From positions 18,010,932 through 18,074,931 of the forward strand of contig OZ020254.1 in assembly GCA_963971285.1 (NCBI GenBank): DNA of 64,000 nt, in the 5' to 3' direction. Below are positions 36,331-62,985 of the stretch, in pieces (the stretch's first letter is position 1; every line of letters begins with the position of its first letter). The translations under genes were made by a program, and so were the position numbers. This stretch comes from Astropecten irregularis. Taxonomy: Eukaryota; Echinodermata; Asteroidea; Paxillosida; Astropectinidae. Under the pieces are notes generated by a model. That model worked only from the letters and a program-made list of their open reading frames with translations, was not told the origin of the DNA and searched no databases.

Positions 36331-36464
36331 TACCAAAGTATGCCTTTAAGTATATATAGTGTACCAGATTTTAGTAATATTTCTCGAATTTGTGTTGTTG
36401 TTAGGATTGGTTTTACTTGAATTACTGCCAAGATCTTGACCCCAGAAAAACCAGAATTTACAGT

Positions 36465-38368: not shown

Positions 38369-38455
38369 CTATATATAGACATTGCACAATCTGTACTGCT
38401 ATTTCTGATCTCACAGCGGCCTAAAACAAGGACCCAAATATTTGCCAAAGGTAAG
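38369..38455 (+). promoter_or_regulatory. Possible promoter and first exon
   Basis: A TATA-like CTATATATAG (about 38370) lies about 80 bases before a good donor-like site CAAAG|GTAAGA (38450/38451). The arrangement would fit a short untranslated first exon. I found no downstream exon, so this is weak. Confidence 0.25.
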
Positions 38456-39763
38456 AAAATGTGTGTAATTAATATTTAATTGCTTTAATTTCTGTTTCAT
38501 TATTATAGGTTTCCAGTAGTGATTCGTATAGCTTTCTTTTCATATTATTCTTTTTCGTTCAGTTGGAGACACGACACTAAAATTAGAGAGACGTGTTGTA
38601 CGTATTTGGTCATGTAAAGTTAAAACGTGTGCACTTTCTGAATGGGAATTTCGACATAATCTAACATTGCAAATAATTCATGTTGACCAGCAACTGCATG
38701 GATGTGAAAGTACATGCCGTCGTGTATGATTTTGGAAATGTACTGATAATAAACTGCTCATCAACCCGAAATCAAAACTGTTTTCGATATTTGTTTTACT
38801 AATGTCTGGATAAATACAGCATTTCAGCCGAAAATATTTAACGATATATATCTCTACCAGCAACAGCTTCATTATCCTGAATGTTATGTGAATATCTCTG
38901 TTTGGGTATGAATGATACCAATCATGCATTGAACCTTTAAACAGGTATTGGTGTAAATCTTTACTCTGTCTATCTTCCCTTAAAAAATGCATTCTTAACT
39001 CGCAGAATAATTTGGCTTGATTGAAGGAACTATAATTATGATGAAACCATCAGCTGTAGTTTATCCCAGAATGCTTCTATGCACGATTGTTTTAAGTCAA
39101 TCAGTGTACGCGTGTCTCACGGGAAAATGTTCCTTTAATTCTTAGAAATAAGCGAAACAAATGAAACTGCTTCAAAATCCCATCCACCCATTTGCGCTTC
39201 ATACTCCCAATGACCGACAGACTGGAATGTGCTATGCTCACTAAAAAACCAAATGCGACGAACGGCCACAAAACAGGTGGATAACCGCAGTTATGTAAAT
39301 ATGGAATGTTATTTCAATACATCTTGATGTCACGTATAAGGGAGAATTGTTACTGACTTAAAATGACACTAAGGGAGTAAGTAACTTTATATCTTCCCCA
39401 ATCTGTTAATTGAAACCTGCCACAATACTGCAGAGTGTGGGTGGGCTTTGGATAACCAGCCACCGTCCCACGTTCACAAAAATTAATGTTTAAGTCTTAG
39501 GGGATTGTCTCTCCATTATTTTAATGAGAAAATAAATTTAAAAAATGTAGGCCTAGTTACAATCTGGCTACATTCTTAATATTTATTTATTTTATATATT
39601 TGGACATTTAAAAACAGTATAAAAATAAAAGATACATTGGCAGGTGCAGGTACTTCCCAGAGAAGACAAAAGAACTGTCATCAAAAGATGTGCCTTCCCA
39701 AACACCTGCCAATTGAAAATTTTATATTATGTATATAAACAGCTGAATCGAAATAAAGCTAAA

Positions 39764-40874
39764 CTAGAGATTGTGTCTGTTGAAAACAGAACACAAGGCT
39801 TTTTCGTTTCCGCTTTTATTGAAACAAAATTGTCATAACCTTATAAACACACAAAAGACAGTTGATTATGATCTGATGTTTTATACATTTGAAGTGTGAT
39901 CCTTTAATCATAATTAAACTAGCTTGAATTGGTCATATTTGTATCTCAAAGAAAGACCTTGCCTAACATCGACTTTTGACGAAAGAATCATGATCATAGC
40001 TCTTACCACTTTTAAATGAGGTGCTACTTCCTGTTTGACCGGAATCTGAGGTCACAGAGGTCAAATATTGTGTCACAATGAAAGATCTTGCCTAACATTG
40101 ACTTTTGGTGAATGAATCATGATCATAGCTCTTACCAATTTTAAATGAGAAGCTACTTCCTGTTTGACCGGAAGTAGAGGTCACAGAGATCAAGCAATGT
40201 GTAAAAAATGAAAGACCTTGCCTAACATTGTCTATTGGTGAAATAATCATGATCATAGCTCTCACCACTTTTAAATGAGGAGCTACTTCCGGTTTGACCG
40301 GAAGTAGAGGTCACAGAGGTCAAGCAATGTAACACAAATGAAAGACCTTGCCTAACATTGTCTATTGGTGAAAGAATCATGATCATAGCTCTTACCACTT
40401 TTAAATGAGAAGCTACTTCCTGTTTGACCGGAAGTAGATGTCACAGAGGTCAAGTAACGTGTCACAATGAAAGACCTTGCCTAACATTCACATTTAGTGA
40501 AAGAATTATGATCCTAGCTCTTTCCACTTTTAAATGAGGAGCTACTTCCTGTTTGACCGGAAGTAGAGGTCACAGAGGTCAAGCAATGTTTTACAAAGAA
40601 AGACCTTGCCTAACAATCACTTTTAGTGAAAGAATCAACTTAATATCTCAATCCGTTGATTTGTTGTTGATTTTTAAAGATTTTGATTATTAAATTCAAA
40701 TCGCTGGTCACGTGACACATGATGACGTCACAATCACGAAAAGTTTCGGCAAATAACTTCGCTACACGAACTTTGTTTTGACCAAGTTTGGTTGAAATCA
40801 GTTGTTTTAAAATGATCAAAGTGCCGCCGACAAAAGTCTATGGTAACTCAAACGACAAGAAAAAGAAGAAGAAA
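39764..40874 (+). repeat. Modular repeat element E1 (130-bp units x5)
   Basis: Left end CTAGAGATTGTG, hairpin (arms TGTGTCTGTT and AACAGAACACA), then GGCTTTTTCGTTTCC. The interior has five 130-bp units. Right end (about 40620-40870): CACGTG, TGACGTCA, ACGAAAAGTTTCGG, GACCAAGTTTGGTTG, AAGTGCCGCCGAC, CTATGGTAACTCAAACGAC and an AAG-rich end. E1 is the first of eight elements arranged head to tail. Confidence 0.85.
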
Positions 40875-41757
40875 CTAGAGTTTATGGCTGTTGAAAACAG
40901 CACATAAGGCTTTTCCGCATATGATATAAATTACTTATCAATAAGAATGTTGTCACTAAAAACGAATTTCCCTTACATTATTTGCCTTTTGGTAAAAGAA
41001 TTATGATCCTAGCTGTAACCACTTTTAAATGAGGAGTTACTTCTTGTTTGACCGGAAGTAGAGGTCACAGAGGTCAAGTAATGTGTCACAAAGTAAAACC
41101 TTGCCTAACATTGTCTTTTGGTGAAAGAATCATGATCCTAGCTCTTACCACTTTTAAATGATGAGCTACTTCCTGTTTGACCGGAAGTAGAGGTCACAGA
41201 GGTCAAGCAATGTGCAACAAATGAAAGACCGTGCCTTACATTGTCTATTGGTTAATGAATCATGATCATAGCTCTTACCACTTTTAAATGAGGAGCTACT
41301 TCCTGTTTGACCGGAAGTAGAGGTCACAGAGGTCAAGTAATGTGTCACAATGAAAGACCTTGCCTGACATTCATATTTGGTGAAAGAATCATGATCATAG
41401 CTCTTACCACTTTTAAATGAGGAGCTACTTCCTGTTTGACCGGAAGTAGAGGTCACAGAGGTCAAGCAATGTTTCACAAAGAAAGACCCTGCCTAACAAT
41501 CACTTTTGGTGGAAGAATCAACTTAATATCTCAATCCGTTGATTTGTTGTTTATTTTTAAATATTTTGATTATTAAATTCAAATCGCTGGTCACGTGACA
41601 CCTGATGACGTCACAATCACGAAAAGTTTCGGCAAACAACTACCCTATAGGGACTTCCTTCTGACCAAGTTTGGAAAAAATCGGCAGTTTAAAAGTGACC
41701 AAAGTGCCGCCGACAAAAACCTATGGTAACTCAAACGACAAGAAAAAGAAAAAAAAA
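40875..41757 (+). repeat. Modular repeat element E2 (130-bp units x4)
   Basis: Left end is the second hairpin form: arms TATGGCTGTT and AACAGCACATA, then AAGGCTTTTCCGC. It has four 130-bp units and the standard right end. E2 is nearly identical to E6 (46048-46931), with single-base differences. A 103-codon minus-strand frame over the units is not a gene. Confidence 0.85.
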
Positions 41758-43131
41758 CTAGAGGTTGTGTCTGTTGAAAACAGAACACATGGCTTTTCCG
41801 CATATGATATAAAATATTTCTCAAATTAAATACACATCGCTGATGTTGTTTGATTCAGCAAATAAATGATATCGTCTTCGGGAAATGATTTCTCGTTTTA
41901 ATCAAAAGAGGGCGTTATTCAAAACCGTGCGCTCGGAAAACTGAATCCTGCATTACGGGTGCAGCCAAGTAAATACATGTAGTGGCAAAATGGGTCCGCC
42001 GCCGAGCTCATGAATAAAAGTTAAGCACTCAATATATTTGAAATAAGAGAGTTGTGAGAGCTATGAAAATGAAGGATTGAAGAAATATGGCACTGGACCT
42101 CCTGCCCGGTCTCTGGGCTTCCATTTGTGACCATTTTTGATGCAATTGGGTGAGAAAGTGGGTCTATTTCAGCCGCTTTGCAGAGGGATGTTTTTTTTTT
42201 TTTGAAAATGGCTTCTTTGACTGGAGTGATCCGTACCTTGTTTTAGGGGTGGTCAGCTGAGAATGAGTATAACTCAAAAATTCAACGGTCTCCCTACCAT
42301 AAAATGAAAAGAAAATGAAAGGTTACATGTTCATCATCATTTTTCTGTGCAACTTGAACAGCTGTGAGAGTTCTGTATATTTTTCAACGATTTTTGAAGT
42401 TTGGGGATTTATCACTGTTGTCCACGGGAGTTTATTTACTTGGGTGCAACCTTACGTACTGAAAACGGTATAAGTAGATTGCTGCGCGTGCGTGGTTGTC
42501 TGGTCAAAACACGGCTCAAAATCAGCATTTACGCTGCTTTGCTGGCAACTATGGTAAGGAAGTAAATAAAAAAACGGCATATATAATCCAGGCAATCAAA
42601 CATCTAAACGCGCCTTGTATTTATGTTGTTTAAATCGTATGTTTTATTAAATGACCAATATTTTCACGTACAGAGCAACCTACATCGATAGCATTTCGAT
42701 TAAGATTTGGTGCTGGTATTTAATGATATATAAAAGGAATTACGTGCAAACTATGCCAAGTGTAAACGACGTTTTGTATCACGCAATCGGACATGTGCAT
42801 TGTATGTTACAAACAGTGAATTGCGTACGTAGGCCTATACATGTACACTGTACATAGTGTATGGGGAATTGATCGAGCTTTATGTTTAGTACAACGACCA
42901 TGTTCACGTAATCTGTGTACAAAGTGAACGGGCTAGTTTGATAATTAAAAAAATCATATAAAATCAAGTTTTGACGTCATGATAACGAAAAGTTTCGGGG
43001 AACAACTACCCTATATGGACTTCATTCAGACCAAGTTTGGTTAAGATCGGCTGTTTTAAAGTAACCAAAGTGCCGCGGACAAAAATCTGTGTACAAAGTC
43101 TTTGGGCCACAGCACAAACTCAAAAAAAATA
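41758..43131 (+). repeat. Modular repeat element E3 (unique interior)
   Basis: Left end CTAGAGGTTGTG with the first hairpin form and GGCTTTTCCGC. The interior (about 41820-42960) is unique, with no 130-bp units and no recognised gene. Right end: TGACGTCATGATAACG, AAAAGTTTCGG, GACCAAGTTTGGTTA, AAGTGCCGCGGAC; the CACGTG motif is missing. Confidence 0.75.
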
Positions 43132-44473
43132 CTAGAGATTGTGTCTGTTGAAAACAGAACACAAGGCTTTTCCGTTTCCGCTTTTATTGAAAAAAATTGT
43201 CATAACCACATACACACAAAGGCAGTTGATTATGATCTTATGTTTTATACCTTTGAAGTGTGCACCTTTAATCAAAAACTCACGTGAATTGGTCATATTG
43301 TGTCACAAAGAAAGACCTTGCCTAACATTGACTTTTGACGAAAGAATCATGATCCTAGCTCTTACCACTTTTAAATGAGGAGCTACTTCCTGATTGACCG
43401 GAAGTAGACGTCACAGAGGTCAAGCAATGTGTCACAATTGAAAGACCTTGCCTAACATTGTCTATTGGTGAAAGAATCATGATCATAGCTCTTACCACTT
43501 TTAAATGAGGAGCCACTTCCTGTTTGACCGGAAGTAGAGGTCACAGAGGTCAAGTAATGTTTCACAATGAAAGACCTTGCCTAACATTTTCTATTGGTGA
43601 AAGAATCATGATCATAGCTCTTACCACTTTTAAATGAGGAGCTACTTCCGGTTTGACCGGAAGTAGAGGTCACAGAGGTCAAGCAATGTAACACAAATGA
43701 AAGACCTTGCCTAACATTGTCTATTGGTGAAAGAATCATGACCATAGCTCTTACCACTTTTAAATGAGGAGCTACTTCCGGTTTGACCGGAAGTAGAGGG
43801 CACAGAGGTCAAGCAATGTAACGAAAATGAAAGACCTTGCCTAACATTGTCTATTGGTGAAAGAATCATGAGGGGAGCTCTTACCACTTTTAAATGAGAA
43901 GCTACTTCCTGTTTGACCGGAAGTAGAGGTCACAGAGGTCAAGCAATGTGTCACAATTGAAAGACCTTGCCTAACATTGTCTATTGGTGAAAGAATCATG
44001 ATCATAGCTCTTACCACTTTTAAATGAGGAGCTACTTCCTGTTTGACCGGAAGTAGAGGTCACAGAGGTCAAGCAATGTTTCACAAAGAAAGACCTTGCC
44101 TAACAATCACTTTTGGTGAAAGAATAAACTTAATATCTCAATCCGTTGATTTGTTGTTGATTTTTAAAGATTTTGATTATTAAATTCAAATCGCTGGTCA
44201 CGTGACACCTGATGATGTCACAATCACGAAAAGTTTCGGCAAACAACTACCCTATAGGGACTTCCTTCTGACCAAGTTTGGTAAAAATCGGCGGTTTAAA
44301 AATTACCAAAGTGCCGCCGACAAAAACCTATGGTAACTCAAACGACAAGAAAAAGAAAAAAAAAAAAAATCAGAACAAAAACAATACCTTTTCCGAAAAA
44401 ATCGGAAAAGCCAAAAAAATCAGAACAAAAACAATACCTTTTCCGAAAAAATCGGAAAAGCCAAAAAGAAAAA
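43132..44473 (+). repeat. Modular repeat element E4 (130-bp units x6)
   Basis: First hairpin form at the left, six 130-bp units (43300-44105), and the standard right end with CACGTG and TGATGTCA (CRE mutated by one base). It closes with two tandem copies of a terminal hairpin module (CTTTTCCG, spacer, CGGAAAAGCC; 44370-44463). Confidence 0.85.
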
Positions 44474-46047
44474 CTAGAGATTGTGTCTGTTGAAAACAGA
44501 ACACATGGCTTTTCCGCATATGATATAGAATATTTCTCAAATTGTATCACTTATTTTGTCAGTTTAAGACATGTGGTTTAAAAGTATCAATTATTTCAAT
44601 GAAGAAAACTAAAGTTTAACCCATTTAGTTGCAGGGTTTATGGAACACATTGTCATTTAGAATTGTGTCACAAAAAATAACTTTGCCTAACATTGACTTT
44701 TGGTGAAAGAATCATGATCAAAGCCCTTACCACTTTTAAATGAGAAGCTACCTCATGTTTGACCGGAAGTAGAGGTCACAGAGGTCAAATAATGTGTCAC
44801 AAATGAAAGACCTTGCCTAAAATTGTCGATTTGTGAAAGAATCATGATCATAGCTCTTACCACTTTTAAATGAGGAGCTACTTCTTGTTTGACCGGAAGT
44901 AGAGGTCACAGAGGTAAAATAATGTGTCACAAATGAAAGACCTTGCCTAACATTGTCGATTGGTTAAAGAATCATGATCATAGCTCTTACCACTTTTAAA
45001 TGAGGAGCTACTTCTTGTTTGACCGGAAGTAGAGGTCACAGAGGTCAAGCAATGTGTCACAAATGAAAGACCTTGCCTAATATTGTCTTTTGGTGAAAGA
45101 ATCATGATCATAGCTCTTATCACTTTTAAATGAGGAGCTACTTCCTGTTTGACCGGAAGTAGAGGTCACAGAGGTCAAGCAATGTGTAACAAATGAAAGA
45201 CCTTGCCTAACATTGTCTATTGGTGAAATAATCATGATCATAGCGCTTACCACTTTTAAATGAGGAACTACTTCCTGTATGACCGGAAGTAGAGGTCACA
45301 GAGGTCAAGCAATGTGTCACAAATGAAAGACCTTGCATAACATTGTATATTGGTGAAAGAATCATGATCCTAGCTCTTACCACTTTTAAATGAGGAGCTA
45401 CTTCCTGTTTGACCGGAAGTAGAGGTCACAGAGGTCAAGCAATGTGTCACAAATGAAAGACCTTGCCTAACATTGTCTATTGGTGAAAGAATCATGATCA
45501 TAGCTCTTATCATTTTTAAATGAGGAGCTACTTCCTGTTTGACCGGAAGTAGAGGTCACAGAGGTCAAGCAATGTGTCACAAATGAAAGACCTTGCCTAA
45601 CATTGTCTATTGGTGAAAGAATCATGATCATAGCTCTTACCACTTTTAAATTAGGAGCTACTTCCTGTTTGACCGGAAGTAGAGGTCACAGAGGTCAAGC
45701 AATGTGTAACAAAGAAAGACCCTACCTAACAATCACTTTGGGTGAAATAATCAACTTAATATCTCAAACGGTTGATTTTTTGTTGATTTTTAAAGATTTT
45801 GATTATTAAATTCAAATCGCTTGTCACGTGACCCCTGATGACGTCATAATGGCGAAAAGTTTCGGGACACAACTACCCTATATGGACTTCCTTCAGACCA
45901 AGTTTGGTTAAAATCGGTTGTTTAAAAGTGACCAAAGTGCCGCCGACAAAAGTCTATGGTAACTCAAACGACAAGAAAAAGAAAACGGAAAAAAAAAAAA
46001 AATCAGAACAAAAGCAATACCTTTTCCGTTGAACACGGAAAAGCCAA
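44474..46047 (+). repeat. Modular repeat element E5 (130-bp units x8)
   Basis: First hairpin form, then eight 130-bp units (44650-45720), the largest number in the window. Right end with CACGTG, TGACGTCA and one terminal hairpin module (CTTTTCCG...CGGAAAAGCC, 46020-46045) followed by AACTAGAG of the next element. Confidence 0.85.
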
Positions 46048-46931
46048 CTAGAGTTTATGGCTGTTGAAAACAGCACATAAGGCTTTTCCGCATATGATAT
46101 AAATTACTTATCAATAAGAATGTTGTCACTAAAAACGAATTTCCCTTACATTATTTGCCTTTTGGTAAAAGAATTATGATCCTAGCTGTAACCACTTTTA
46201 AATGAGGAGTTACTTCTTGTTTGACCGGAAGTAGAGGTCACAGAGGTCAAGTAATGTGTCACAAAGAAAAACCTTGCCTAACATTGTCTTTTGGTGAAAG
46301 AATCATGATCCTAGCTCTTACCACTTTTAAATGATGAGCTACTTCCTGTTTGACCGGAAGTAGAGGTCACAGAGGTCAAGCAATGTGCAACAAATGAAAG
46401 ACCGTGCCTTACATTGTCTATTGGTGAAAGAATCATGATCATAGCTCTTACCACTTTTAAATGAGGAGCTACTTCCTGTTTGACCGGAAGTAGAGGTCAC
46501 AGAGGTCAAGTAATGTGTCACAATGAAAGACCTTGCCTGACATTCATATTTGGTGAAAGAATCATGATCATAGCTCTTACCACTTTTAAATGAGGAGCTA
46601 CTTCCTGTTTGACCGGAAGTAGAGGTCACAGAGGTCAAGCAATGTTTCACAAAGAAAGACCCTGCCTAACAATCACTTTTGGTGGAAGAATCAACTTAAT
46701 ATCTCAATCCGTTGATTTGTTGTTTATTTTTAAATATTTTGATTATTAAATTCAAATCGCTGGTCACGTGACACCTGATGACGTCACAATCACGAAAAGT
46801 TTCGGCAAACAACTACCCTATAGGGACTTCCTTCTGACCAAGTTTGGAAAAAATCGGCAGTTTAAAAGTGACCAAAGTGCCGCCGACAAAAACCTATGGT
46901 AACTCAAACGACAAGAAAAAGAAAAAAAAAA
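46048..46931 (+). repeat. Modular repeat element E6 (near-copy of E2)
   Basis: Second hairpin form, four 130-bp units and the same right end as E2. Over about 880 bases only a handful of differences are visible. No terminal hairpin module. Confidence 0.85.
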
Positions 46932-47194
46932 CTAGAGGTTGTGTCTGTTGAAAACAGAACACATGGCTTTTCCGCATATGATATAAAATATTTCAAAAAT
47001 TAATACACATCGCGTATTTTGTTTTTGGTTTAAAAGTGACAATGTCTCAATGTTGTTTAACCCAATATAGTTGCATGGTTAATGGATCTAGTCCCTAATT
47101 GAAGACACTGTCATTCAGTTGGACATATACCATGACATCATTATGATGACGTTGGAGGACCTGGGTGCTTTTGAGGATACATCATTATGCAAAT

Positions 47195-47640
47195 GACACA
47201 AAATCATTTTGCGAGTACAAAATAATTAGCGTATACAACATCATTAACAAATACAACATCATTAGCCAATACAAATTCATTTGTGAATACAAATTCATTT
47301 GCAAATAGAAAATCATTGGCGAACACAAAATCATTTGCGAATACAAAATCATTTATTGCCAGTACGTAATCATTTTGTGTATTCATTTGTCGAAGACGAT
47401 ATCATATGCGAATACGGAAAATTATTTTGTATTCGTTAATAATGATCTTCTTCGACTTTCTTGAAGGCGATATCAGATGCGAATAGAAATCATTTGCAAA
47501 TACTATAAATTCATATGTGAATACAAAATCATTTTGCGTATTCGCATATCGTCTACGACAAAATAATGATTGCGTGAAGATGACATCTTTTGCGAATACG
47601 AAATCAATATCGAATACCAATCATTTGGAGAACATGATTG
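47195..47640 (+). repeat. Imperfect ~21-bp tandem repeat
   Basis: Repeats of GAATACAAAATCATTTGC and relatives (AACATCATTAGC, AAATTCATTTGC). Some later copies are inverted or mixed with CGATATC-rich stretches near 47395-47560. The frames across it are compositional. Confidence 0.8.
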
Positions 47641-48333
47641 CATGAAACGTATTTGCTTCCATGTAATGAACTTCAGTATTAAACTGATTGCCACGTATAG
47701 AAAAACACGCCTACAAGGTCTAGGGGAGAGGACGTGACATTTACTTGTTCATGTGTAAAACTGTATGATCAAATTGCCACGTACAAAAAGACAAAGTCTA
47801 TGGATCTTTGCAGTTTTCCAATACAACTCTTTCCAAGTATTATATTAAGTTGTACATGAATTTACTTAACACGACCCATAAAATGACGTACAATACTCCT
47901 CAACCTACATTGAAAACATTTAGATTAAGATTTTGGATGCTGGTATACGTACGTGCATTGGCAAGATGAAATACGAGTTGTAAGTCACGACATTGTTTTA
48001 CACAGGGAAAGATTGACGTAGGTACAGTGTATGAGAATTCCCGAATTCGAGCAACATAATGTTTTGTACATGACCATTAATTTCACGTAAACTGTGTACA
48101 AAGTTACAGACCAGTAAATAGGTTCAAATCAGTCCGCAGAGCTCATTAATTTTTTGTATACCCTCAAAATTTTTCTTTATAAGAACATTTTCTGAACCTT
48201 ACATGGGAATTCCTGTAGAACACAATTAAACAACTTGGTCACTAGAGTTTGGACTTTTACTTTAAAGTTGTTTGGATGAAATCCGACCCTAAATTCGCTC
48301 TACTTTTGCACGCAGTGGAGGGATAATCCAGAC

Positions 48334-51300
48334 AAGCCAAAAATACAAGTTTTCGAACGTTAGAGGGCGTCTTACCATTTCTTTTATACGCAGTCGGAAA
48401 ATTCGAAAGGCTTGCGGCGTGTATTCAGTTCTGGACAAGTCATGCAACGCAGGGCTCCCCAAATGCCTTGAAATGAAATATTTTTAGGGTATACACAAAA
48501 TGTATGAGCTGGCGAACAGAATTGGGCCTATATGCAAGTCTTGTCCCGGTAATGAAGATGCGCGCATACCGTAAAGTTAGAATTTGCTAGAGATAAAGAA
48601 AGCTTACAATTTTCATAAAATCGTAAAAAATTCAATCAAGATGCCGTCGTGTCGCCGTTTCACATTTAGCATCCCGGACACACATACTTAATACCCACTA
48701 ATTTTCATGACGATCGGACAATGTCTTTATGACGATCGGCCTATCGGCTATTGTGTTACCAAAATCTCATTTTGATAACGTTATGATGACGTCACAGTAT
48801 TTTGCTCCGAAAATGTTGATCTCTGTTGCACATTTAAGAATTACAAAAAGAATTTTAAAGATACCATCTTTCGTTCACTAGTTATCGTTAAAATAACTTT
48901 AATGACCCAAATATTCAATAAATCATAAGAAATCGGAGGATGACGTCATGATGACGTCATTGCAATTTTTTAATATAACACTTCCCGACTTAGACACGTA
49001 CCAAGTTTCCACTCAGTCGAACCAAGGGTTCGCTCATAATTGGCATGCGAAGTTTGGCCATTTATGGCACTGTCACGTGACCCATGATGACGTCATGATG
49101 ACGAAATTGTTCGGCACACATCCGCACTATAGGGACTTTGTTTTGACCAAGTTTGGCTGATATTGGCTGTTTAAAACTAAACAAAGTGGGGTGTAGAAAG
49201 TCTGTGCACAAGCCTATGACCGAACAAAAATAAAAGCTTTTCGCTTCCGCGAAAAAGCCAAAAATACAAGTTTTCGAACGTTGAGGGCGTCTTACCAATT
49301 TTCGTTTGCAGTCCGGAGAAGACTTGCCGGCGTGCATTTTCTGGACAAGTCATGCAACGCAGGGCTCCCCAAATGCCTTGAAATGAAATATTTTTAGGGT
49401 ATACACAAAATGTATGAGCTGGCGAACAGAATTGGGCCTATATGCAAGTCTTGTCCCGGTAATGAAGATGCGCGCATACCGTAAAGTTAGAATTTGCTAG
49501 AGATAAAGAAAGCTTACAATTTTCATAAAATCGTAAAAAATTCAATCAAGATGCCGTCGTGTCGCCGTTTCACATTTAGCATCCCGGACACACATACTTA
49601 ATACCCACTAATTTTCATGACGATCGGACAATGTCTTTATGACGATCGGCCTATCGGCTATTGTGTTACCAAAATCTCATTTTGATAACGTTATGATGAC
49701 GTCACAGTATTTTGCTCCGAAAATGTTGATCTCTGTTGCACATTTAAGAATTACAAAAAGAATTTTAAAGATACCATCTTTCGTTCACTAGTTATCGTTA
49801 AAATAACTTTAATGACCCAAATATTCAATAAATCATAAGAAATCGGAGGATGACGTCATGATGACGTCATTGCAATTTTTTAATATAACACTTCCCGACT
49901 TAGACACGTACCAAGTTTCCACTCAGTCGAACCAAGGGTTCGCTCATAATTGGCATGCGAAGTTTGGCCATTTATGGCACTGTCACGTGACCCATGATGA
50001 CGTCATGATGACGAAATTGTTCGGCACACATCCGCACTATAGGGACTTTGTTTTGACCAAGTTTGGCTGATATTGGCTGTTTAAAACTAAACAAAGTGGG
50101 GTGTAGAAAGTCTGTGCACAAGCCTATGACCGAACAAAAATAAAAGCTTTTCGCTTCCGCGAAAAAGCCAAAAATACAAGTTTTCGAACGTTGAGGGCGT
50201 CTTACCAATTTTCGTTTGCAGTCCGGAGAAGACTTGCCGGCGTGCATTTTCTGGACAAGTCATGCAACGCAGGGCTCCCCAAATGCCTTGAAATGAAATA
50301 TTTTTAGGGTATACACAAAATGTATGAGCTGGCGAACAGAATTGGGCCTATATGCAAGTCTTGTCCCGGTAATGAAGATGCGCGCATACCGTAAAGTTAG
50401 AATTTGCTAGAGATAAAGAAAGCTTACAATTTTCATAAAATCGTAAAAAATTCAATCAAGATGCCGTCGTGTCGCCGTTTCACATTTAGCATCCCGGACA
50501 CACATACTTAATACCCACTAATTTTCATGACGATCGGACAATGTCTTTATGACGATCGGCCTATCGGCTATTGTGTTACCAAAATCTCATTTTGATAACG
50601 TTATGATGACGTCACAGTATTTTGCTCCGAAAATGTTGATCTCTGTTGCACATTTAAGAATTACAAAAAGAATTTTAAAGATACCATCTTTCGTTCACTA
50701 GTTATCGTTAAAATAACTTTAATGACCCAAATATTCAATAAATCATAAGAAATCGGAGGATGACGTCATGATGACGTCATTGCAATTTTTTAATATAACA
50801 CTTCCCGACTTAGACACGTACCAAGTTTCCACTCAGTCGAACCAAGGGTTCGCTCATAATTGGCATGCGAAGTTTGGCCATTTATGGCACTGTCACGTGA
50901 CCCATGATGACGTCATGATGACGAAATTGTTCGGCACACATCCGCACTATAGGGACTTTGTTTTGACCAAGTTTGGCTGATATTGGCTGTTTAAAACTAA
51001 ACAAAGTGGGGTGTAGAAAGTCTGTGCACAAGCCTATGACCGAACAAAAATAAAAGCTTTTCGCTTCCGCGAAAAAGCCAAAAATACAAGTTTTCGAACG
51101 TTGAGGGCGTCTTACCAATTTTCGTTTGCAGTCCGGAGAAGACTTGCCGGCGTGCATTTTCTGGACAAGTCATGCAACGCAGGGCTCCCCAAATGCCTTG
51201 AAATGAAATATTTTTAGGGTATACACAAAATGTATGAGCTGGCGAACAGAATTGGGCCTATATGCAAGTCTTGTCCCGGTAATGAAGATGCGCGCATACC

Positions 51301-54300
51301 GTAAAGTTAGAATTTGCTAGAGATAAAGAAAGCTTACAATTTTCATAAAATCGTAAAAAATTCAATCAAGATGCCGTCGTGTCGCCGTTTCACATTTAGC
51401 ATCCCGGACACACATACTTAATACCCACTAATTTTCATGACGATCGGACAATGTCTTTATGACGATCGGCCTATCGGCTATTGTGTTACCAAAATCTCAT
51501 TTTGATAACGTTATGATGACGTCACAGTATTTTGCTCCGAAAATGTTGATCTCTGTTGCACATTTAAGAATTACAAAAAGAATTTTAAAGATACCATCTT
51601 TCGTTCACTAGTTATCGTTAAAATAACTTTAATGACCCAAATATTCAATAAATCATAAGAAATCGGAGGATGACGTCATGATGACGTCATTGCAATTTTT
51701 TAATATAACACTTCCCGACTTAGACACGTACCAAGTTTCCACTCAGTCGAACCAAGGGTTCGCTCATAATTGGCATGCGAAGTTTGGCCATTTATGGCAC
51801 TGTCACGTGACCCATGATGACGTCATGATGACGAAATTGTTCGGCACACATCCGCACTATAGGGACTTTGTTTTGACCAAGTTTGGCTGATATTGGCTGT
51901 TTAAAACTAAACAAAGTGGGGTGTAGAAAGTCTGTGCACAAGCCTATGACCGAACAAAAATAAAAGCTTTTCGCTTCCGCGAAAAAGCCAAAAATACAAG
52001 TTTTCGAACGTTGAGGGCGTCTTACCAATTTTCGTTTGCAGTCCGGAGAAGACTTGCCGGCGTGCATTTTCTGGACAAGTCATGCAACGCAGGGCTCCCC
52101 AAATGCCTTGAAATGAAATATTTTTAGGGTATACACAAAATGTATGAGCTGGCGAACAGAATTGGGCCTATATGCAAGTCTTGTCCCGGTAATGAAGATG
52201 CGCGCATACCGTAAAGTTAGAATTTGCTAGAGATAAAGAAAGCTTACAATTTTCATAAAATCGTAAAAAATTCAATCAAGATGCCGTCGTGTCGCCGTTT
52301 CACATTTAGCATCCCGGACACACATACTTAATACCCACTAATTTTCATGACGATCGGACAATGTCTTTATGACGATCGGCCTATCGGCTATTGTGTTACC
52401 AAAATCTCATTTTGATAACGTTATGATGACGTCACAGTATTTTGCTCCGAAAATGTTGATCTCTGTTGCACATTTAAGAATTACAAAAAGAATTTTAAAG
52501 ATACCATCTTTCGTTCACTAGTTATCGTTAAAATAACTTTAATGACCCAAATATTCAATAAATCATAAGAAATCGGAGGATGACGTCATGATGACGTCAT
52601 TGCAATTTTTTAATATAACACTTCCCGACTTAGACACGTACCAAGTTTCCACTCAGTCGAACCAAGGGTTCGCTCATAATTGGCATGCGAAGTTTGGCCA
52701 TTTATGGCACTGTCACGTGACCCATGATGACGTCATGATGACGAAATTGTTCGGCACACATCCGCACTATAGGGACTTTGTTTTGACCAAGTTTGGCTGA
52801 TATTGGCTGTTTAAAACTAAACAAAGTGGGGTGTAGAAAGTCTGTGCACAAGCCTATGACCGAACAAAAATAAAAGCTTTTCGCTTCCGCGAAAAAGCCA
52901 AAAATACAAGTTTTCGAACGTTGAGGGCGTCTTACCAATTTTCGTTTGCAGTCCGGAGAAGACTTGCCGGCGTGCATTTTCTGGACAAGTCATGCAACGC
53001 AGGGCTCCCCAAATGCCTTGAAATGAAATATTTTTAGGGTATACACAAAATGTATGAGCTGGCGAACAGAATTGGGCCTATATGCAAGTCTTGTCCCGGT
53101 AATGAAGATGCGCGCATACCGTAAAGTTAGAATTTGCTAGAGATAAAGAAAGCTTACAATTTTCATAAAATCGTAAAAAATTCAATCAAGATGCCGTCGT
53201 GTCGCCGTTTCACATTTAGCATCCCGGACACACATACTTAATACCCACTAATTTTCATGACGATCGGACAATGTCTTTATGACGATCGGCCTATCGGCTA
53301 TTGTGTTACCAAAATCTCATTTTGATAACGTTATGATGACGTCACAGTATTTTGCTCCGAAAATGTTGATCTCTGTTGCACATTTAAGAATTACAAAAAG
53401 AATTTTAAAGATACCATCTTTCGTTCACTAGTTATCGTTAAAATAACTTTAATGACCCAAATATTCAATAAATCATAAGAAATCGGAGGATGACGTCATG
53501 ATGACGTCATTGCAATTTTTTAATATAACACTTCCCGACTTAGACACGTACCAAGTTTCCACTCAGTCGAACCAAGGGTTCGCTCATAATTGGCATGCGA
53601 AGTTTGGCCATTTATGGCACTGTCACGTGACCCATGATGACGTCATGATGACGAAATTGTTCGGCACACATCCGCACTATAGGGACTTTGTTTTGACCAA
53701 GTTTGGCTGATATTGGCTGTTTAAAACTAAACAAAGTGGGGTGTAGAAAGTCTGTGCACAAGCCTATGACCGAACAAAAATAAAAGCTTTTCGCTTCCGC
53801 GAAAAAGCCAAAAATACAAGTTTTCGAACGTTGAGGGCGTCTTACCAATTTTCGTTTGCAGTCCGGAGAAGACTTGCCGGCGTGCATTTTCTGGACAAGT
53901 CATGCAACGCAGGGCTCCCCAAATGCCTTGAAATGAAATATTTTTAGGGTATACACAAAATGTATGAGCTGGCGAACAGAATTGGGCCTATATGCAAGTC
54001 TTGTCCCGGTAATGAAGATGCGCGCATACCGTAAAGTTAGAATTTGCTAGAGATAAAGAAAGCTTACAATTTTCATAAAATCGTAAAAAATTCAATCAAG
54101 ATGCCGTCGTGTCGCCGTTTCACATTTAGCATCCCGGACACACATACTTAATACCCACTAATTTTCATGACGATCGGACAATGTCTTTATGACGATCGGC
54201 CTATCGGCTATTGTGTTACCAAAATCTCATTTTGATAACGTTATGATGACGTCACAGTATTTTGCTCCGAAAATGTTGATCTCTGTTGCACATTTAAGAA

Positions 54301-57300
54301 TTACAAAAAGAATTTTAAAGATACCATCTTTCGTTCACTAGTTATCGTTAAAATAACTTTAATGACCCAAATATTCAATAAATCATAAGAAATCGGAGGA
54401 TGACGTCATGATGACGTCATTGCAATTTTTTAATATAACACTTCCCGACTTAGACACGTACCAAGTTTCCACTCAGTCGAACCAAGGGTTCGCTCATAAT
54501 TGGCATGCGAAGTTTGGCCATTTATGGCACTGTCACGTGACCCATGATGACGTCATGATGACGAAATTGTTCGGCACACATCCGCACTATAGGGACTTTG
54601 TTTTGACCAAGTTTGGCTGATATTGGCTGTTTAAAACTAAACAAAGTGGGGTGTAGAAAGTCTGTGCACAAGCCTATGACCGAACAAAAATAAAAGCTTT
54701 TCGCTTCCGCGAAAAAGCCAAAAATACAAGTTTTCGAACGTTGAGGGCGTCTTACCAATTTTCGTTTGCAGTCCGGAGAAGACTTGCCGGCGTGCATTTT
54801 CTGGACAAGTCATGCAACGCAGGGCTCCCCAAATGCCTTGAAATGAAATATTTTTAGGGTATACACAAAATGTATGAGCTGGCGAACAGAATTGGGCCTA
54901 TATGCAAGTCTTGTCCCGGTAATGAAGATGCGCGCATACCGTAAAGTTAGAATTTGCTAGAGATAAAGAAAGCTTACAATTTTCATAAAATCGTAAAAAA
55001 TTCAATCAAGATGCCGTCGTGTCGCCGTTTCACATTTAGCATCCCGGACACACATACTTAATACCCACTAATTTTCATGACGATCGGACAATGTCTTTAT
55101 GACGATCGGCCTATCGGCTATTGTGTTACCAAAATCTCATTTTGATAACGTTATGATGACGTCACAGTATTTTGCTCCGAAAATGTTGATCTCTGTTGCA
55201 CATTTAAGAATTACAAAAAGAATTTTAAAGATACCATCTTTCGTTCACTAGTTATCGTTAAAATAACTTTAATGACCCAAATATTCAATAAATCATAAGA
55301 AATCGGAGGATGACGTCATGATGACGTCATTGCAATTTTTTAATATAACACTTCCCGACTTAGACACGTACCAAGTTTCCACTCAGTCGAACCAAGGGTT
55401 CGCTCATAATTGGCATGCGAAGTTTGGCCATTTATGGCACTGTCACGTGACCCATGATGACGTCATGATGACGAAATTGTTCGGCACACATCCGCACTAT
55501 AGGGACTTTGTTTTGACCAAGTTTGGCTGATATTGGCTGTTTAAAACTAAACAAAGTGGGGTGTAGAAAGTCTGTGCACAAGCCTATGACCGAACAAAAA
55601 TAAAAGCTTTTCGCTTCCGCGAAAAAGCCAAAAATACAAGTTTTCGAACGTTGAGGGCGTCTTACCAATTTTCGTTTGCAGTCCGGAGAAGACTTGCCGG
55701 CGTGCATTTTCTGGACAAGTCATGCAACGCAGGGCTCCCCAAATGCCTTGAAATGAAATATTTTTAGGGTATACACAAAATGTATGAGCTGGCGAACAGA
55801 ATTGGGCCTATATGCAAGTCTTGTCCCGGTAATGAAGATGCGCGCATACCGTAAAGTTAGAATTTGCTAGAGATAAAGAAAGCTTACAATTTTCATAAAA
55901 TCGTAAAAAATTCAATCAAGATGCCGTCGTGTCGCCGTTTCACATTTAGCATCCCGGACACACATACTTAATACCCACTAATTTTCATGACGATCGGACA
56001 ATGTCTTTATGACGATCGGCCTATCGGCTATTGTGTTACCAAAATCTCATTTTGATAACGTTATGATGACGTCACAGTATTTTGCTCCGAAAATGTTGAT
56101 CTCTGTTGCACATTTAAGAATTACAAAAAGAATTTTAAAGATACCATCTTTCGTTCACTAGTTATCGTTAAAATAACTTTAATGACCCAAATATTCAATA
56201 AATCATAAGAAATCGGAGGATGACGTCATGATGACGTCATTGCAATTTTTTAATATAACACTTCCCGACTTAGACACGTACCAAGTTTCCACTCAGTCGA
56301 ACCAAGGGTTCGCTCATAATTGGCATGCGAAGTTTGGCCATTTATGGCACTGTCACGTGACCCATGATGACGTCATGATGACGAAATTGTTCGGCACACA
56401 TCCGCACTATAGGGACTTTGTTTTGACCAAGTTTGGCTGATATTGGCTGTTTAAAACTAAACAAAGTGGGGTGTAGAAAGTCTGTGCACAAGCCTATGAC
56501 CGAACAAAAATAAAAGCTTTTCGCTTCCGCGAAAAAGCCAAAAATACAAGTTTTCGAACGTTGAGGGCGTCTTACCAATTTTCGTTTGCAGTCCGGAGAA
56601 GACTTGCCGGCGTGCATTTTCTGGACAAGTCATGCAACGCAGGGCTCCCCAAATGCCTTGAAATGAAATATTTTTAGGGTATACACAAAATGTATGAGCT
56701 GGCGAACAGAATTGGGCCTATATGCAAGTCTTGTCCCGGTAATGAAGATGCGCGCATACCGTAAAGTTAGAATTTGCTAGAGATAAAGAAAGCTTACAAT
56801 TTTCATAAAATCGTAAAAAATTCAATCAAGATGCCGTCGTGTCGCCGTTTCACATTTAGCATCCCGGACACACATACTTAATACCCACTAATTTTCATGA
56901 CGATCGGACAATGTCTTTATGACGATCGGCCTATCGGCTATTGTGTTACCAAAATCTCATTTTGATAACGTTATGATGACGTCACAGTATTTTGCTCCGA
57001 AAATGTTGATCTCTGTTGCACATTTAAGAATTACAAAAAGAATTTTAAAGATACCATCTTTCGTTCACTAGTTATCGTTAAAATAACTTTAATGACCCAA
57101 ATATTCAATAAATCATAAGAAATCGGAGGATGACGTCATGATGACGTCATTGCAATTTTTTAATATAACACTTCCCGACTTAGACACGTACCAAGTTTCC
57201 ACTCAGTCGAACCAAGGGTTCGCTCATAATTGGCATGCGAAGTTTGGCCATTTATGGCACTGTCACGTGACCCATGATGACGTCATGATGACGAAATTGT

Positions 57301-60300
57301 TCGGCACACATCCGCACTATAGGGACTTTGTTTTGACCAAGTTTGGCTGATATTGGCTGTTTAAAACTAAACAAAGTGGGGTGTAGAAAGTCTGTGCACA
57401 AGCCTATGACCGAACAAAAATAAAAGCTTTTCGCTTCCGCGAAAAAGCCAAAAATACAAGTTTTCGAACGTTGAGGGCGTCTTACCAATTTTCGTTTGCA
57501 GTCCGGAGAAGACTTGCCGGCGTGCATTTTCTGGACAAGTCATGCAACGCAGGGCTCCCCAAATGCCTTGAAATGAAATATTTTTAGGGTATACACAAAA
57601 TGTATGAGCTGGCGAACAGAATTGGGCCTATATGCAAGTCTTGTCCCGGTAATGAAGATGCGCGCATACCGTAAAGTTAGAATTTGCTAGAGATAAAGAA
57701 AGCTTACAATTTTCATAAAATCGTAAAAAATTCAATCAAGATGCCGTCGTGTCGCCGTTTCACATTTAGCATCCCGGACACACATACTTAATACCCACTA
57801 ATTTTCATGACGATCGGACAATGTCTTTATGACGATCGGCCTATCGGCTATTGTGTTACCAAAATCTCATTTTGATAACGTTATGATGACGTCACAGTAT
57901 TTTGCTCCGAAAATGTTGATCTCTGTTGCACATTTAAGAATTACAAAAAGAATTTTAAAGATACCATCTTTCGTTCACTAGTTATCGTTAAAATAACTTT
58001 AATGACCCAAATATTCAATAAATCATAAGAAATCGGAGGATGACGTCATGATGACGTCATTGCAATTTTTTAATATAACACTTCCCGACTTAGACACGTA
58101 CCAAGTTTCCACTCAGTCGAACCAAGGGTTCGCTCATAATTGGCATGCGAAGTTTGGCCATTTATGGCACTGTCACGTGACCCATGATGACGTCATGATG
58201 ACGAAATTGTTCGGCACACATCCGCACTATAGGGACTTTGTTTTGACCAAGTTTGGCTGATATTGGCTGTTTAAAACTAAACAAAGTGGGGTGTAGAAAG
58301 TCTGTGCACAAGCCTATGACCGAACAAAAATAAAAGCTTTTCGCTTCCGCGAAAAAGCCAAAAATACAAGTTTTCGAACGTTGAGGGCGTCTTACCAATT
58401 TTCGTTTGCAGTCCGGAGAAGACTTGCCGGCGTGCATTTTCTGGACAAGTCATGCAACGCAGGGCTCCCCAAATGCCTTGAAATGAAATATTTTTAGGGT
58501 ATACACAAAATGTATGAGCTGGCGAACAGAATTGGGCCTATATGCAAGTCTTGTCCCGGTAATGAAGATGCGCGCATACCGTAAAGTTAGAATTTGCTAG
58601 AGATAAAGAAAGCTTACAATTTTCATAAAATCGTAAAAAATTCAATCAAGATGCCGTCGTGTCGCCGTTTCACATTTAGCATCCCGGACACACATACTTA
58701 ATACCCACTAATTTTCATGACGATCGGACAATGTCTTTATGACGATCGGCCTATCGGCTATTGTGTTACCAAAATCTCATTTTGATAACGTTATGATGAC
58801 GTCACAGTATTTTGCTCCGAAAATGTTGATCTCTGTTGCACATTTAAGAATTACAAAAAGAATTTTAAAGATACCATCTTTCGTTCACTAGTTATCGTTA
58901 AAATAACTTTAATGACCCAAATATTCAATAAATCATAAGAAATCGGAGGATGACGTCATGATGACGTCATTGCAATTTTTTAATATAACACTTCCCGACT
59001 TAGACACGTACCAAGTTTCCACTCAGTCGAACCAAGGGTTCGCTCATAATTGGCATGCGAAGTTTGGCCATTTATGGCACTGTCACGTGACCCATGATGA
59101 CGTCATGATGACGAAATTGTTCGGCACACATCCGCACTATAGGGACTTTGTTTTGACCAAGTTTGGCTGATATTGGCTGTTTAAAACTAAACAAAGTGGG
59201 GTGTAGAAAGTCTGTGCACAAGCCTATGACCGAACAAAAATAAAAGCTTTTCGCTTCCGCGAAAAAGCCAAAAATACAAGTTTTCGAACGTTGAGGGCGT
59301 CTTACCAATTTTCGTTTGCAGTCCGGAGAAGACTTGCCGGCGTGCATTTTCTGGACAAGTCATGCAACGCAGGGCTCCCCAAATGCCTTGAAATGAAATA
59401 TTTTTAGGGTATACACAAAATGTATGAGCTGGCGAACAGAATTGGGCCTATATGCAAGTCTTGTCCCGGTAATGAAGATGCGCGCATACCGTAAAGTTAG
59501 AATTTGCTAGAGATAAAGAAAGCTTACAATTTTCATAAAATCGTAAAAAATTCAATCAAGATGCCGTCGTGTCGCCGTTTCACATTTAGCATCCCGGACA
59601 CACATACTTAATACCCACTAATTTTCATGACGATCGGACAATGTCTTTATGACGATCGGCCTATCGGCTATTGTGTTACCAAAATCTCATTTTGATAACG
59701 TTATGATGACGTCACAGTATTTTGCTCCGAAAATGTTGATCTCTGTTGCACATTTAAGAATTACAAAAAGAATTTTAAAGATACCATCTTTCGTTCACTA
59801 GTTATCGTTAAAATAACTTTAATGACCCAAATATTCAATAAATCATAAGAAATCGGAGGATGACGTCATGATGACGTCATTGCAATTTTTTAATATAACA
59901 CTTCCCGACTTAGACACGTACCAAGTTTCCACTCAGTCGAACCAAGGGTTCGCTCATAATTGGCATGCGAAGTTTGGCCATTTATGGCACTGTCACGTGA
60001 CCCATGATGACGTCATGATGACGAAATTGTTCGGCACACATCCGCACTATAGGGACTTTGTTTTGACCAAGTTTGGCTGATATTGGCTGTTTAAAACTAA
60101 ACAAAGTGGGGTGTAGAAAGTCTGTGCACAAGCCTATGACCGAACAAAAATAAAAGCTTTTCGCTTCCGCGAAAAAGCCAAAAATACAAGTTTTCGAACG
60201 TTGAGGGCGTCTTACCAATTTTCGTTTGCAGTCCGGAGAAGACTTGCCGGCGTGCATTTTCTGGACAAGTCATGCAACGCAGGGCTCCCCAAATGCCTTG

Positions 60301-62001
60301 AAATGAAATATTTTTAGGGTATACACAAAATGTATGAGCTGGCGAACAGAATTGGGCCTATATGCAAGTCTTGTCCCGGTAATGAAGATGCGCGCATACC
60401 GTAAAGTTAGAATTTGCTAGAGATAAAGAAAGCTTACAATTTTCATAAAATCGTAAAAAATTCAATCAAGATGCCGTCGTGTCGCCGTTTCACATTTAGC
60501 ATCCCGGACACACATACTTAATACCCACTAATTTTCATGACGATCGGACAATGTCTTTATGACGATCGGCCTATCGGCTATTGTGTTACCAAAATCTCAT
60601 TTTGATAACGTTATGATGACGTCACAGTATTTTGCTCCGAAAATGTTGATCTCTGTTGCACATTTAAGAATTACAAAAAGAATTTTAAAGATACCATCTT
60701 TCGTTCACTAGTTATCGTTAAAATAACTTTAATGACCCAAATATTCAATAAATCATAAGAAATCGGAGGATGACGTCATGATGACGTCATTGCAATTTTT
60801 TAATATAACACTTCCCGACTTAGACACGTACCAAGTTTCCACTCAGTCGAACCAAGGGTTCGCTCATAATTGGCATGCGAAGTTTGGCCATTTATGGCAC
60901 TGTCACGTGACCCATGATGACGTCATGATGACGAAATTGTTCGGCACACATCCGCACTATAGGGACTTTGTTTTGACCAAGTTTGGCTGATATTGGCTGT
61001 TTAAAACTAAACAAAGTGGGGTGTAGAAAGTCTGTGCACAAGCCTATGACCGAACAAAAATAAAAGCTTTTCGCTTCCGCGAAAAAGCCAAAAATACAAG
61101 TTTTCGAACGTTGAGGGCGTCTTACCAATTTTCGTTTGCAGTCCGGAGAAGACTTGCCGGCGTGCATTTTCTGGACAAGTCATGCAACGCAGGGCTCCCC
61201 AAATGCCTTGAAATGAAATATTTTTAGGGTATACACAAAATGTATGAGCTGGCGAACAGAATTGGGCCTATATGCAAGTCTTGTCCCGGTAATGAAGATG
61301 CGCGCATACCGTAAAGTTAGAATTTGCTAGAGATAAAGAAAGCTTACAATTTTCATAAAATCGTAAAAAATTCAATCAAGATGCCGTCGTGTCGCCGTTT
61401 CACATTTAGCATCCCGGACACACATACTTAATACCCACTAATTTTCATGACGATCGGACAATGTCTTTATGACGATCGGCCTATCGGCTATTGTGTTACC
61501 AAAATCTCATTTTGATAACGTTATGATGACGTCACAGTATTTTGCTCCGAAAATGTTGATCTCTGTTGCACATTTAAGAATTACAAAAAGAATTTTAAAG
61601 ATACCATCTTTCGTTCACTAGTTATCGTTAAAATAACTTTAATGACCCAAATATTCAATAAATCATAAGAAATCGGAGGATGACGTCATGATGACGTCAT
61701 TGCAATTTTTTAATATAACACTTCCCGACTTAGACACGTACCAAGTTTCCACTCAGTCGAACCAAGGGTTCGCTCATAATTGGCATGCGAAGTTTGGCCA
61801 TTTATGGCACTGTCACGTGACCCATGATGACGTCATGATGACGAAATTGTTCGGCACACATCCGCACTATAGGGACTTTGTTTTGACCAAGTTTGGCTGA
61901 TATTGGCTGTTTAAAACTAAACAAAGTGGGGTGTAGAAAGTCTGTGCACAAGCCTATGACCGAACAAAAATAAAAGCTTTTCGCTTCCGCGAAAAAGCCA
62001 A
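48334..62001 (+). repeat. 910-bp satellite, 15 tandem monomers
   Basis: The period is exactly 910. The landmark GATGACGTCATGATGACGTC recurs with starts near 48940, 49850 and every 910 bases to 61680. The first ~100 bases of the first monomer are diverged (about 11 bases longer), and all other monomers look identical. Each monomer has four TGACGTCA sites, a GTCACGTGAC palindrome, CGATCGG repeats, and the block GACCAAGTTTGGCTG that matches the right end of the E elements. It ends with a GCGAAAAAGCC hairpin. Frames of 70 and 91 codons recur in every copy but resemble no protein. Confidence 0.97.
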
Positions 62002-62985
62002 CTAGAGATTGTGTCTGTTGAAAACAGAACACAAGGCTTTTCCGTTTAATAACATTAAAATGAATTGTCAAAACCTTTAACACATAAAGACATTTGATTA
62101 AGATATTTAATTAAGCCTACTTTTAAAATTCTTCGTCATTTTTCTGTCACAAATGAAAGACCTTGCCTAACATTGACTTTTGGTGAAAGAATCATGTTCA
62201 TAGCTCTTACCACTTTTAAATGAGAAGCTACTTCCGGTTTGACCAGAAGTAGAGGTCACAGAGGTCAAGTAATGTGTCAAAATGAATGACCTTGCCTAAC
62301 ATTCACTTTTGGTGAAAGAATCATGATCATAGCTCTTACCACTTTTAAATGAGGAGCTACTTCCTGTTTGACCGGAAGTAGAGGTCACAGAGGTCAAGTA
62401 ATGTGTCACAATGAAAGACCTTGCCTAACATTCACTTTTGGTGAAAGAATCATGATTCTAGCTCTTACCACTTTTAAATGAGGAGCTACTTCCTGTTTGA
62501 CCGGAAGTAGAGGTCACAGAGGTCAAGCAATGTGTCACACAGAAAGGCCCTACCTAACAATCGCTTTTGGTGAAAGAACCAACTTAATATCTCAAACCGT
62601 TGATTTTTTGTTGATTTTTAAAGATTTTGATTTTTAAATTCAAATCGCTTGTCACGTGACCCCTGATGACGTCATGATGGCGAAAAGTTTCGGGACACAA
62701 CTACCCTATATGGACTTCCTTCAGACCAAGTTTGGTTAAAATCGGTTGCATAAAAGTGACCAAAGTGCCGCAGACAAAGACCTATGGTAACTCAAACGAC
62801 AAGAAAAAGAAGAAAAAAGAAAAAAAATCAGAACAAAAACAATACCTTTTCCGATTAAAATCGGAAAAGCCAAAAAATCAGAACAAAAACAATACCTTTT
62901 CCGAAAAAATCGGAAAAGCCAAAAAGAAAAAAAATCAGAACAAAAACAATACCTTTTCCGATTGAAATCGAAAAAGCCAAAAAAT
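62002..62985 (+). repeat. Modular repeat element E8 (130-bp units x3)
   Basis: First hairpin form and GGCTTTTCCG at the left, then three 130-bp units (62150-62560). The right end has CACGTG and TGACGTCA and finishes with three tandem terminal hairpin modules (CTTTTCCG...CGGAAAAGCC; 62820-62980). It closes the head-to-tail run. Confidence 0.85.

Follow-up and report, generated by a model that had tools for sequence, protein, structure and literature searches.

A head-to-tail stack of eight HINE-like elements in Astropecten irregularis, one of which carries a tandem array of its own 5' part

How transposons are converted into satellite DNA is an open question, and one stretch of the genome of Astropecten irregularis raises it in a concrete form: why do eight related repeat elements stand there head to tail, and how did one of them come to hold many 5' ends behind a single 3' end? 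We analysed 64,000 nucleotides (nt) of contig OZ020254.1 (assembly GCA_963971285.1, positions 18,010,932 to 18,074,931), hereafter the window. All coordinates are positions in this 64-kb window, and the elements, E1 to E8, were read on the minus strand throughout. They all have the same (minus-strand) orientation and fill 39764-62985 (~23 kb) head to tail. The anatomy, junctions, identities and mixed ends described below are direct readings of the sequence. We consider it likely that the stretch is a stack of eight minus-strand HINEs, i.e. non-autonomous elements of the Helentron type, that was built by serial insertion into resident T tracts, and that the array within E7 arose by rolling-circle amplification. 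The elements are as follows.

39764..40874, minus strand: E1, HINE-like; five anchors of a 130-bp unit; 5' end a T-rich tract, without terminal palindrome
40875..41757, minus strand: E2; four anchors of the 130-bp unit; near-identical to E6
41758..43131, minus strand: E3; unique interior; 62-nt 3' end the same as that of E7; 5' block different from that of E7
43132..44473, minus strand: E4; six anchors of the 130-bp unit; 3' end E1-like; 5' block E2/E6-like; two terminal palindromes
44474..46047, minus strand: E5; eight anchors of the 130-bp unit; 3' end E3/E7-like; 5' block E8-like; one terminal palindrome
46048..46931, minus strand: E6, twin of E2; four anchors of the 130-bp unit
46932..62001, minus strand: E7; a single 3' end, followed by 1.5 kb of largely unique sequence and by 14.9 copies of the element's own 910-bp 5' part
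62002..62985, minus strand: E8; three anchors of the 130-bp unit; three terminal palindromes

The original prediction, made from the letters of the window, had described eight segments that start with CTAGAG, a hairpin and a GGCTTTTCCG-like sequence. These were found at all eight positions (39764, 40875, 41758, 43132, 44474, 46048, 46932 and 62002), with GGCTTTTCCG exact at seven of them and carrying a single mismatch in E1. Seven starts also contained AACTAGAG, in place of which E4 had ATACTAGAG. Read on the minus strand, each start is the 3' end of an element and consists of a subterminal CGGAAAAGCC (exact in 7/8, one mismatch in E1), a hairpin and CTCTAG (8/8). RNA folding gave the hairpin, for example TTGTGTTCTGTTTTCAACAGACACAA, in all eight elements, at a distance of 7 nt from the end in E4. 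Single-stranded DNA folding covered five stretches and gave z-scores of -2.67 and -2.80 for two of the eight 3' ends and of -6.25, -2.45 and -6.54 for three 5' palindromes.

The 5' side is a block of ~150 nt that is related among the elements and that ends in a terminal palindrome in four of them (E4, E5, E7 and E8). The arm of this palindrome, GGCTTTTCCG, is an inverted copy of the 3' CGGAAAAGCC and follows directly on a 5' TT. An identical closing block had been predicted for all eight elements; a related block was present in each, but E3 lacked CACGTG, E4 had TGATGTCA and E7 lacked AAGTGCCGC. Direct abutment of the elements likewise held in part. It counts as independent evidence only in E5, E7 and E4, because there the next element begins at a recognisable 5' terminus: the terminal TTGGC of E5 and E7 directly touches the CTAG of the next element, and the palindrome of E4 lies 9 nt further in. 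The other four (E1, E2, E3 and E6) are without the palindrome, and their 5' boundary is set only by the position of the next CTAG. Representative termini are listed here.

43132..43174, minus strand: 3' terminus (E4), with CGGAAAAGCC, hairpin and TCTCTAG
46020..46047, minus strand: 5' terminus (E5), a TTGGCTTTTCCG-loop-CGGAAAAGG palindrome
61977..62001, minus strand: 5' terminus of E7 with its palindrome, TTGGCTTTTTCGCGGAAGCGAAAAG
62845..62978, minus strand: three consecutive 5' palindromes at the outer end of the stack

Terminal-palindrome units of 50 bp were also found in tandem at 62815-62985 (3.3 copies) and 44363-44467 (2.1 copies), where the 5' terminus itself is repeated. From E1 to E8 the palindromes numbered 0, 0, 0, 2, 1, 0, 1 (at the outer end of E7) and 3, a total of seven for eight elements. 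We considered these counts as a record of nested insertion, and their order nearly fits nesting; this was given little weight because the two units of E4 are identical and because, by hand count, one in eight cyclic orders would fit equally well.

In E7, such 5' termini form a long array. The features of E7 that bear on its origin are:

48429..62001, minus strand: 910-bp array of truncated elements, each with a 5' terminus and without a 3' end
48341..48428, minus strand: 88 bp at the inner array edge that correspond, with divergence, to unit positions 1-78
48334..48340, minus strand: internal 7-nt copy of the 5' terminus (TTGGCTT), at the inner array edge, in register with the unit junctions
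47198-47354: 18-bp minisatellite in the mostly unique part of E7

The array comprises 14.92 units over 13,573 bp, and successive units differed at 0 of 12,663 compared positions. It had been predicted that E7 combines unique sequence with a 910-bp satellite as cargo. The array and the mostly unique part were both present, but the units are not cargo. Because each contains the palindromic 5' end (15 in all) and the 5' block and lacks the known 3' end, the units are the element's own 5' part, i.e. truncated elements. The best match to the 43-nt 3' end within the unit was 23 of 43 positions, while 200 shuffles reached 25; a CTAGAG inside the unit was rejected as a 3' end, as no 3' end stands behind it by this comparison. 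The array stops at base 62001, which is the 5' terminus of E7, and E8 begins at the next base. Taken as a whole, E7 has 15 5' ends and one 3' end, which fits an array of truncated Helitrons, in which 5' ends are kept, 3' ends are gone and one full 3' end remains. The string TTGGCTT, with which the 5' terminus begins, is present at a single place in the 1.5 kb of E7 outside the array: at the inner edge, exactly at the point of a unit junction (junction sequence CTTGTATTTTTGGCTTTTTCGC). E7 displays both the presumed start of a conversion into satellite DNA, the internal copy of the terminus, and its outcome, an array without divergence between successive units. Zero substitutions in 13,573 bp would place the age of the array below about 22,000-110,000 years at assumed rates of 1e-8 to 2e-9 per site and year, a figure that homogenisation would void.

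Ordinary unequal exchange or replication slippage, following one microhomology duplication, could have produced the same array with no rolling-circle step. We regard this as rather unlikely, with real points in its favour. The 7-nt junction match suits microhomology repair, and the diverged edge at 48341-48428 lies next to a homogeneous interior, a combination that is common in satellites homogenised by unequal exchange. However, 0 differences in 12,663 comparisons would require a single burst or very recent homogenisation, and the array is bounded by the element's 5' terminus and not by a point inside the neighbour. Sister loci and circles could separate the rolling-circle account of E7 from unequal exchange. 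It is improbable that the perfect array is an assembly artefact, i.e. an over-extended or smoothed repeat whose true counterpart is shorter or more varied. Such an artefact would account for 14.9 copies without any difference between successive units, but both array edges are clean, the phase of the element end is kept, and the window contains another long identical repeat, the two 1349-bp long terminal repeats (LTRs) of a retrotransposon.

The ends of the elements were compared in all 28 pairs, over the 3'-terminal 62 nt and 150 nt of the 5' block. This alignment, recommended with the original prediction, gave related ends in all eight elements, but the ends fell into differing groups on the two sides. 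At the 3' end, E2 and E6 were identical (0 differences), as were E3 and E7, which were joined by E5 at 2 differences; E1 and E4 differed at 2 positions and E8 stood alone (at least 13). In the 5' block, E2 and E6 were again identical and were joined by E4 at 5 differences, E5 and E8 differed at 11 positions, and E1, E3 and E7 were separate. The 5' blocks of E3 and E7 differed at 42 of 144 positions, and that of E7 showed 42-50 mismatches per 144-149 aligned bases to the other seven. Only E2 and E6, which are not adjacent, were alike at both ends. By these groupings, E4 looks chimeric, with a 3' end resembling that of E1 and a 5' block resembling that of E2, as does E5, in which a 3' end of the E3/E7 type is combined with a 5' block of the E8 type; the E3/E7 pair, with a common 3' end and different 5' blocks, has the same appearance. 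Ends, as well as interiors, have apparently been exchanged among copies.

The predicted 3-8 copies of a 130-bp unit in E1, E2, E4, E5, E6 and E8 were borne out by anchor counts of 5, 4, 6, 8, 4 and 3, respectively; E3 and E7 had none. The interior of E3 had been called unique, and it indeed lacks the 130-bp unit, but two patches of 46-47 nt matched E7 at 83-85% identity. Among 30 monomers of the 130-bp unit, mean identity was 0.905 within and 0.896 between elements, so that homogenisation per element was hardly seen.

Neighbouring elements differed from one another, and the twins E2 and E6 (880 identities, 3 mismatches, 1 gap; starts 5.2 kb apart) are non-adjacent and have different 3' neighbours, which we counted in favour of serial stacking. 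Among the matches listed, E1 and E2 were ~90% identical over 808 nt and E4 and E5 ~92% identical over 1129 nt, the 3' ends of the latter pair differing at 15 of 62 positions; E2 and E3, again among the matches listed, were alike only at their ends, over 67 and 120 nt. The base after CTCTAG was T in 8/8 elements, and TT followed in 7/8. All seven A runs of at least 8 nt in the stack, which are T on the transposon strand, lie at 5' ends (E2, E3, E4, E5, E6 and twice E8), and the one T run of at least 8 nt lies inside E3. We see little prospect that the whole eight-element stack is instead a single read-through product of a rolling-circle run past its terminator. Head-to-tail order and single orientation would be expected of such a product, and terminator bypass is the published account of tandem Helitron clusters in bat and silkworm in the sources consulted, but it was rejected for the whole stack because the neighbours are not copies of each other; by their ends, only the non-adjacent E2 and E6 match.

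According to PMC4067079, HINEs lack coding capacity and carry terminal T strings, a 3' palindrome and subterminal inverted repeats that lie 2-4 nt from the 5' end; their TT targets are T-rich. The proto-Helentron of Phytophthora has a 5' TT and a 3' CTAG. In the stack, subterminal inverted repeats are present (the 3' copy in 8/8, 7 of them exact, and the palindromic 5' copy in 4/8), a palindrome lies near the 3' end in 8/8, and coding capacity is absent: there was no open frame of at least 110 codons between stops within 39050-63219, and a Pfam scan of 10 of the 35 listed window frames contained no Rep or helicase. The subterminal inverted repeats, the hairpin at the 3' end and the absence of long open frames, together with the palindromic form of the 5' repeat, the T-rich junctions and the repeats in the centre of the elements, support the assignment to HINEs, and with it the likeness to pearl/DINE-type Helitron-like elements that had been proposed. 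A canonical Helitron is not supported because the 5' end is TT rather than TC (the 5' ends are TTGGC or a T-rich tract). Where a canonical Helitron has CTRR and a hairpin ~11 nt upstream, these elements have CTAG and a hairpin at 7 nt; with respect to the canonical A/T insertion site, the 3' side is T and the 5' side of the outermost element lies within a T run. MITE-like (miniature inverted-repeat transposable element) or foldback elements with similar ends, not moved by a rolling circle, are a very improbable alternative, for although pearl elements were first described as MITEs (according to PMC7492417) and inverted repeats and hairpins are found in both classes, the two ends differ in structure and one of them has a hairpin beside CTAG, which fits a Helentron and not a terminal-inverted-repeat element.

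Searches of the rest of the window with three of the eight starts, two of the eight ends, both repeat units (130 and 910 bp) and two interiors returned only matches of 12-48 nt (E 0.002-0.48). Exact patterns from the 3' end and 5' block had 0 matches among viral contigs, and those from the 5' block and 130-bp unit had 0 matches among bacterial and archaeal contigs, collections that say little on animal elements.

How, then, might the stack have formed? What we infer is the enzyme, the order in which the elements were inserted and the route by a rolling circle. A Rep/helicase encoded elsewhere would nick at the 5' TT and peel off one strand; copying would halt at the 3' hairpin and CTAG, and the copy would be joined to a T-rich target. 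The T tract near the 5' end of a resident copy, on the strand used by the enzyme, would be the target for the next copy, and ends and repeats would be swapped among copies. Because the T tract invites the next copy, the stack would grow head to tail in one orientation, with some 5' ends split, which suggests a simple reason for the observed order. PMC12628747 cites McGurk and Barbash for insertion-site preference as the chief source of transposon dimers in Drosophila. On reaching the internal TTGGCTT of E7, the copying strand would have returned to the true 5' terminus, made ~14 repeats and then passed to the real 3' end; alternatively, a 910-bp circle formed in that way could have been amplified and rejoined. 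In plants, arrays of Helitrons, many of which have several 5' ends but only one 3' end, were attributed to terminator loss from a circular template (Xiong et al. 2016, as told in PMC12628747), and PMC8268682 gives the same rolling-circle account of truncated Helitron arrays. According to PMC4778049, experiments on Helraiser, a Helitron of bats, showed circles whose ends are joined precisely head to tail, and showed that the hairpin acts as terminator. For a circular template between internally repeated 5' ends, the counterpart in E7 is the 7-nt internal terminus copy at the array edge. More tentatively, and as a possibility that we would not yet call probable, a Helentron-type element might convert itself into a satellite in one step, by Rep restart at TTGGCTT-like internal bases, and with the 5' T tract as a landing pad the stack would be a self-seeding nursery of satellites and chimeric elements.

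Several observations weigh against this account of serial insertion and rolling-circle amplification by HINEs. The 5' palindrome is absent from 4/8 elements, and the distances of the subterminal repeat and the hairpin from the 3' end, 33 and 7 nt, fall slightly short of the ranges described for mite HINEs (about 38-60 and 8-35). In 7/8 cases the T after CTAG belongs to the 5' end of the neighbouring element, so that the T flank is weak evidence of target choice. The two palindrome units of E4 match at 100%, which has the look of local duplication rather than of displacement by insertion. The junctions E2/E3 and E6/E7 resemble each other, with 9 or 10 A ahead of 62 identical nt and with 93.6% identity over 94 nt, and because of this likeness it is conceivable that the twins were copied jointly with part of their 5' neighbour; they may have been so copied rather than inserted independently. 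In E7, several indels are among the differences between 48341-48428 and unit positions 1-78, whereas the sequence further out shows none. Simple slippage on the strand of E7 itself should have produced an identical edge, so a step through another copy or later recombination is needed; the array may have arisen by way of a second copy or of a circle that was recombined back.

The rest of the window holds further features, and among these an LTR retrotransposon, pieces of a CARD domain and a desaturase frame have a eukaryotic character. Just left of the stack, at 34495-38910, are several diverged inverted repeats (105-367 bp, 70-76% identity), perhaps an old foldback or inverted-repeat element. 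The LTR retrotransposon at 23710-30267 has identical 1349-bp LTRs with TG...CA ends and GTAT on both sides, and its gag-like (zinc knuckle) and protease/integrase-zinc-binding frames are open. No reverse transcriptase was found by Pfam in these frames (E up to 0.01), nor any plus-strand YXDD-like motif between the LTRs, so the element is perhaps a non-autonomous derivative of very young age. At 30318-31922, two exon-like pieces match halves of the CARD domain (23.3 and 19.1 bits, both below the Pfam cut-off of 23.9), and the second runs into a 15-bp minisatellite (46.6 copies) that is read as a proline-rich repeat. An uninterrupted 386-codon frame at 19423-20580 with a fatty-acid desaturase domain (E 9e-17) is perhaps an intronless gene or retrocopy. 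A 7-bp minisatellite, CATCTCG, occupies 6500-7622 (~160 copies, 69% matches). Repeated segments of 70-90 bp at 3198-12019 include a weak Rfam tRNA match at 3235-3307 (29.1 bits, cut-off 29, E 0.058); ARAGORN found no tRNA for these repeats, which are perhaps a tRNA-derived short interspersed element.

Adjacent Helitrons, swapped repeats and arrays with multiple 5' ends are each known already. The exchange of interiors and the head-to-tail run had been thought unusual; this did not hold up, as both were already reported for Helitron-type elements (oyster Cg_HINE group 2 for the former; bat, silkworm, maize, rice and Drosophila for the latter). Interior exchange is already known because, as described in PMC7492417, oyster HINE flanks carry unrelated repeats. 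In the same description, Cg_HINE of the Pacific oyster has subterminal inverted repeats, a 3' palindrome and central satellite-like repeats, and its group 2 has related flanks around unrelated repeats, as here; a 910-bp array of 5' parts and an eight-element stack set the present locus apart from Cg_HINE as described. The central repeats are 130 bp here compared to 164-166 bp in Cg170/CgiSat01 (table in PMC8268682). Bivalve pearl elements (CvA, CvE, MgE and DTC84; PMC7492417, PMC5139131) likewise combine ends that are short and fixed with as many as six central repeats, but these repeats are about 160 bp long, and the likeness is one of descriptions, not of sequences. Arthropod HINE/DINE-1 elements, as characterised in PMC4067079, share the subterminal repeat that lies 2-4 nt from the 5' end and is a palindrome in the mite, as well as the 3' palindrome, TT targets and T strings; in the stack, the subterminal repeat and hairpin are slightly closer to the 3' end, and the 5' TT and 3' CTAG are as in the Phytophthora proto-Helentron of the same paper.

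Elements also lie side by side in the adjacent or tandem Helitrons of bat, silkworm, maize, rice and Drosophila (as reported in PMC4067079 and PMC5148889), whereas the neighbours here are of mixed subfamilies and joined at T tracts. The 'shuffled' loci of Crassostrea gigas, in the account that PMC12628747 gives of its authors' earlier work, similarly contain complete, truncated and tandemised Helitron/Helentron parts inserted in one another. Helitron-2 of Drosophila virilis (PMC3833285) is present in many truncated copies, mainly of the 5' 928 bp; these are described there as multiple truncated copies, whereas here a tandem array of 5' parts is combined with one 3' end. In the literature consulted, which was not a full survey, we found no Helentron-type element of an animal that combines identical 5' parts with a single 3' end and a short junction that can still be seen. 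The nearest counterparts of E7 are the arrays of truncated Helitrons in plants (Xiong et al. 2016, according to PMC12628747), which likewise have multiple 5' ends and a single 3' end and comprise several to hundreds of units; those are partly decayed Helitrons, whereas E7 is an animal element of the Helentron type with identical units and a visible 7-nt junction.

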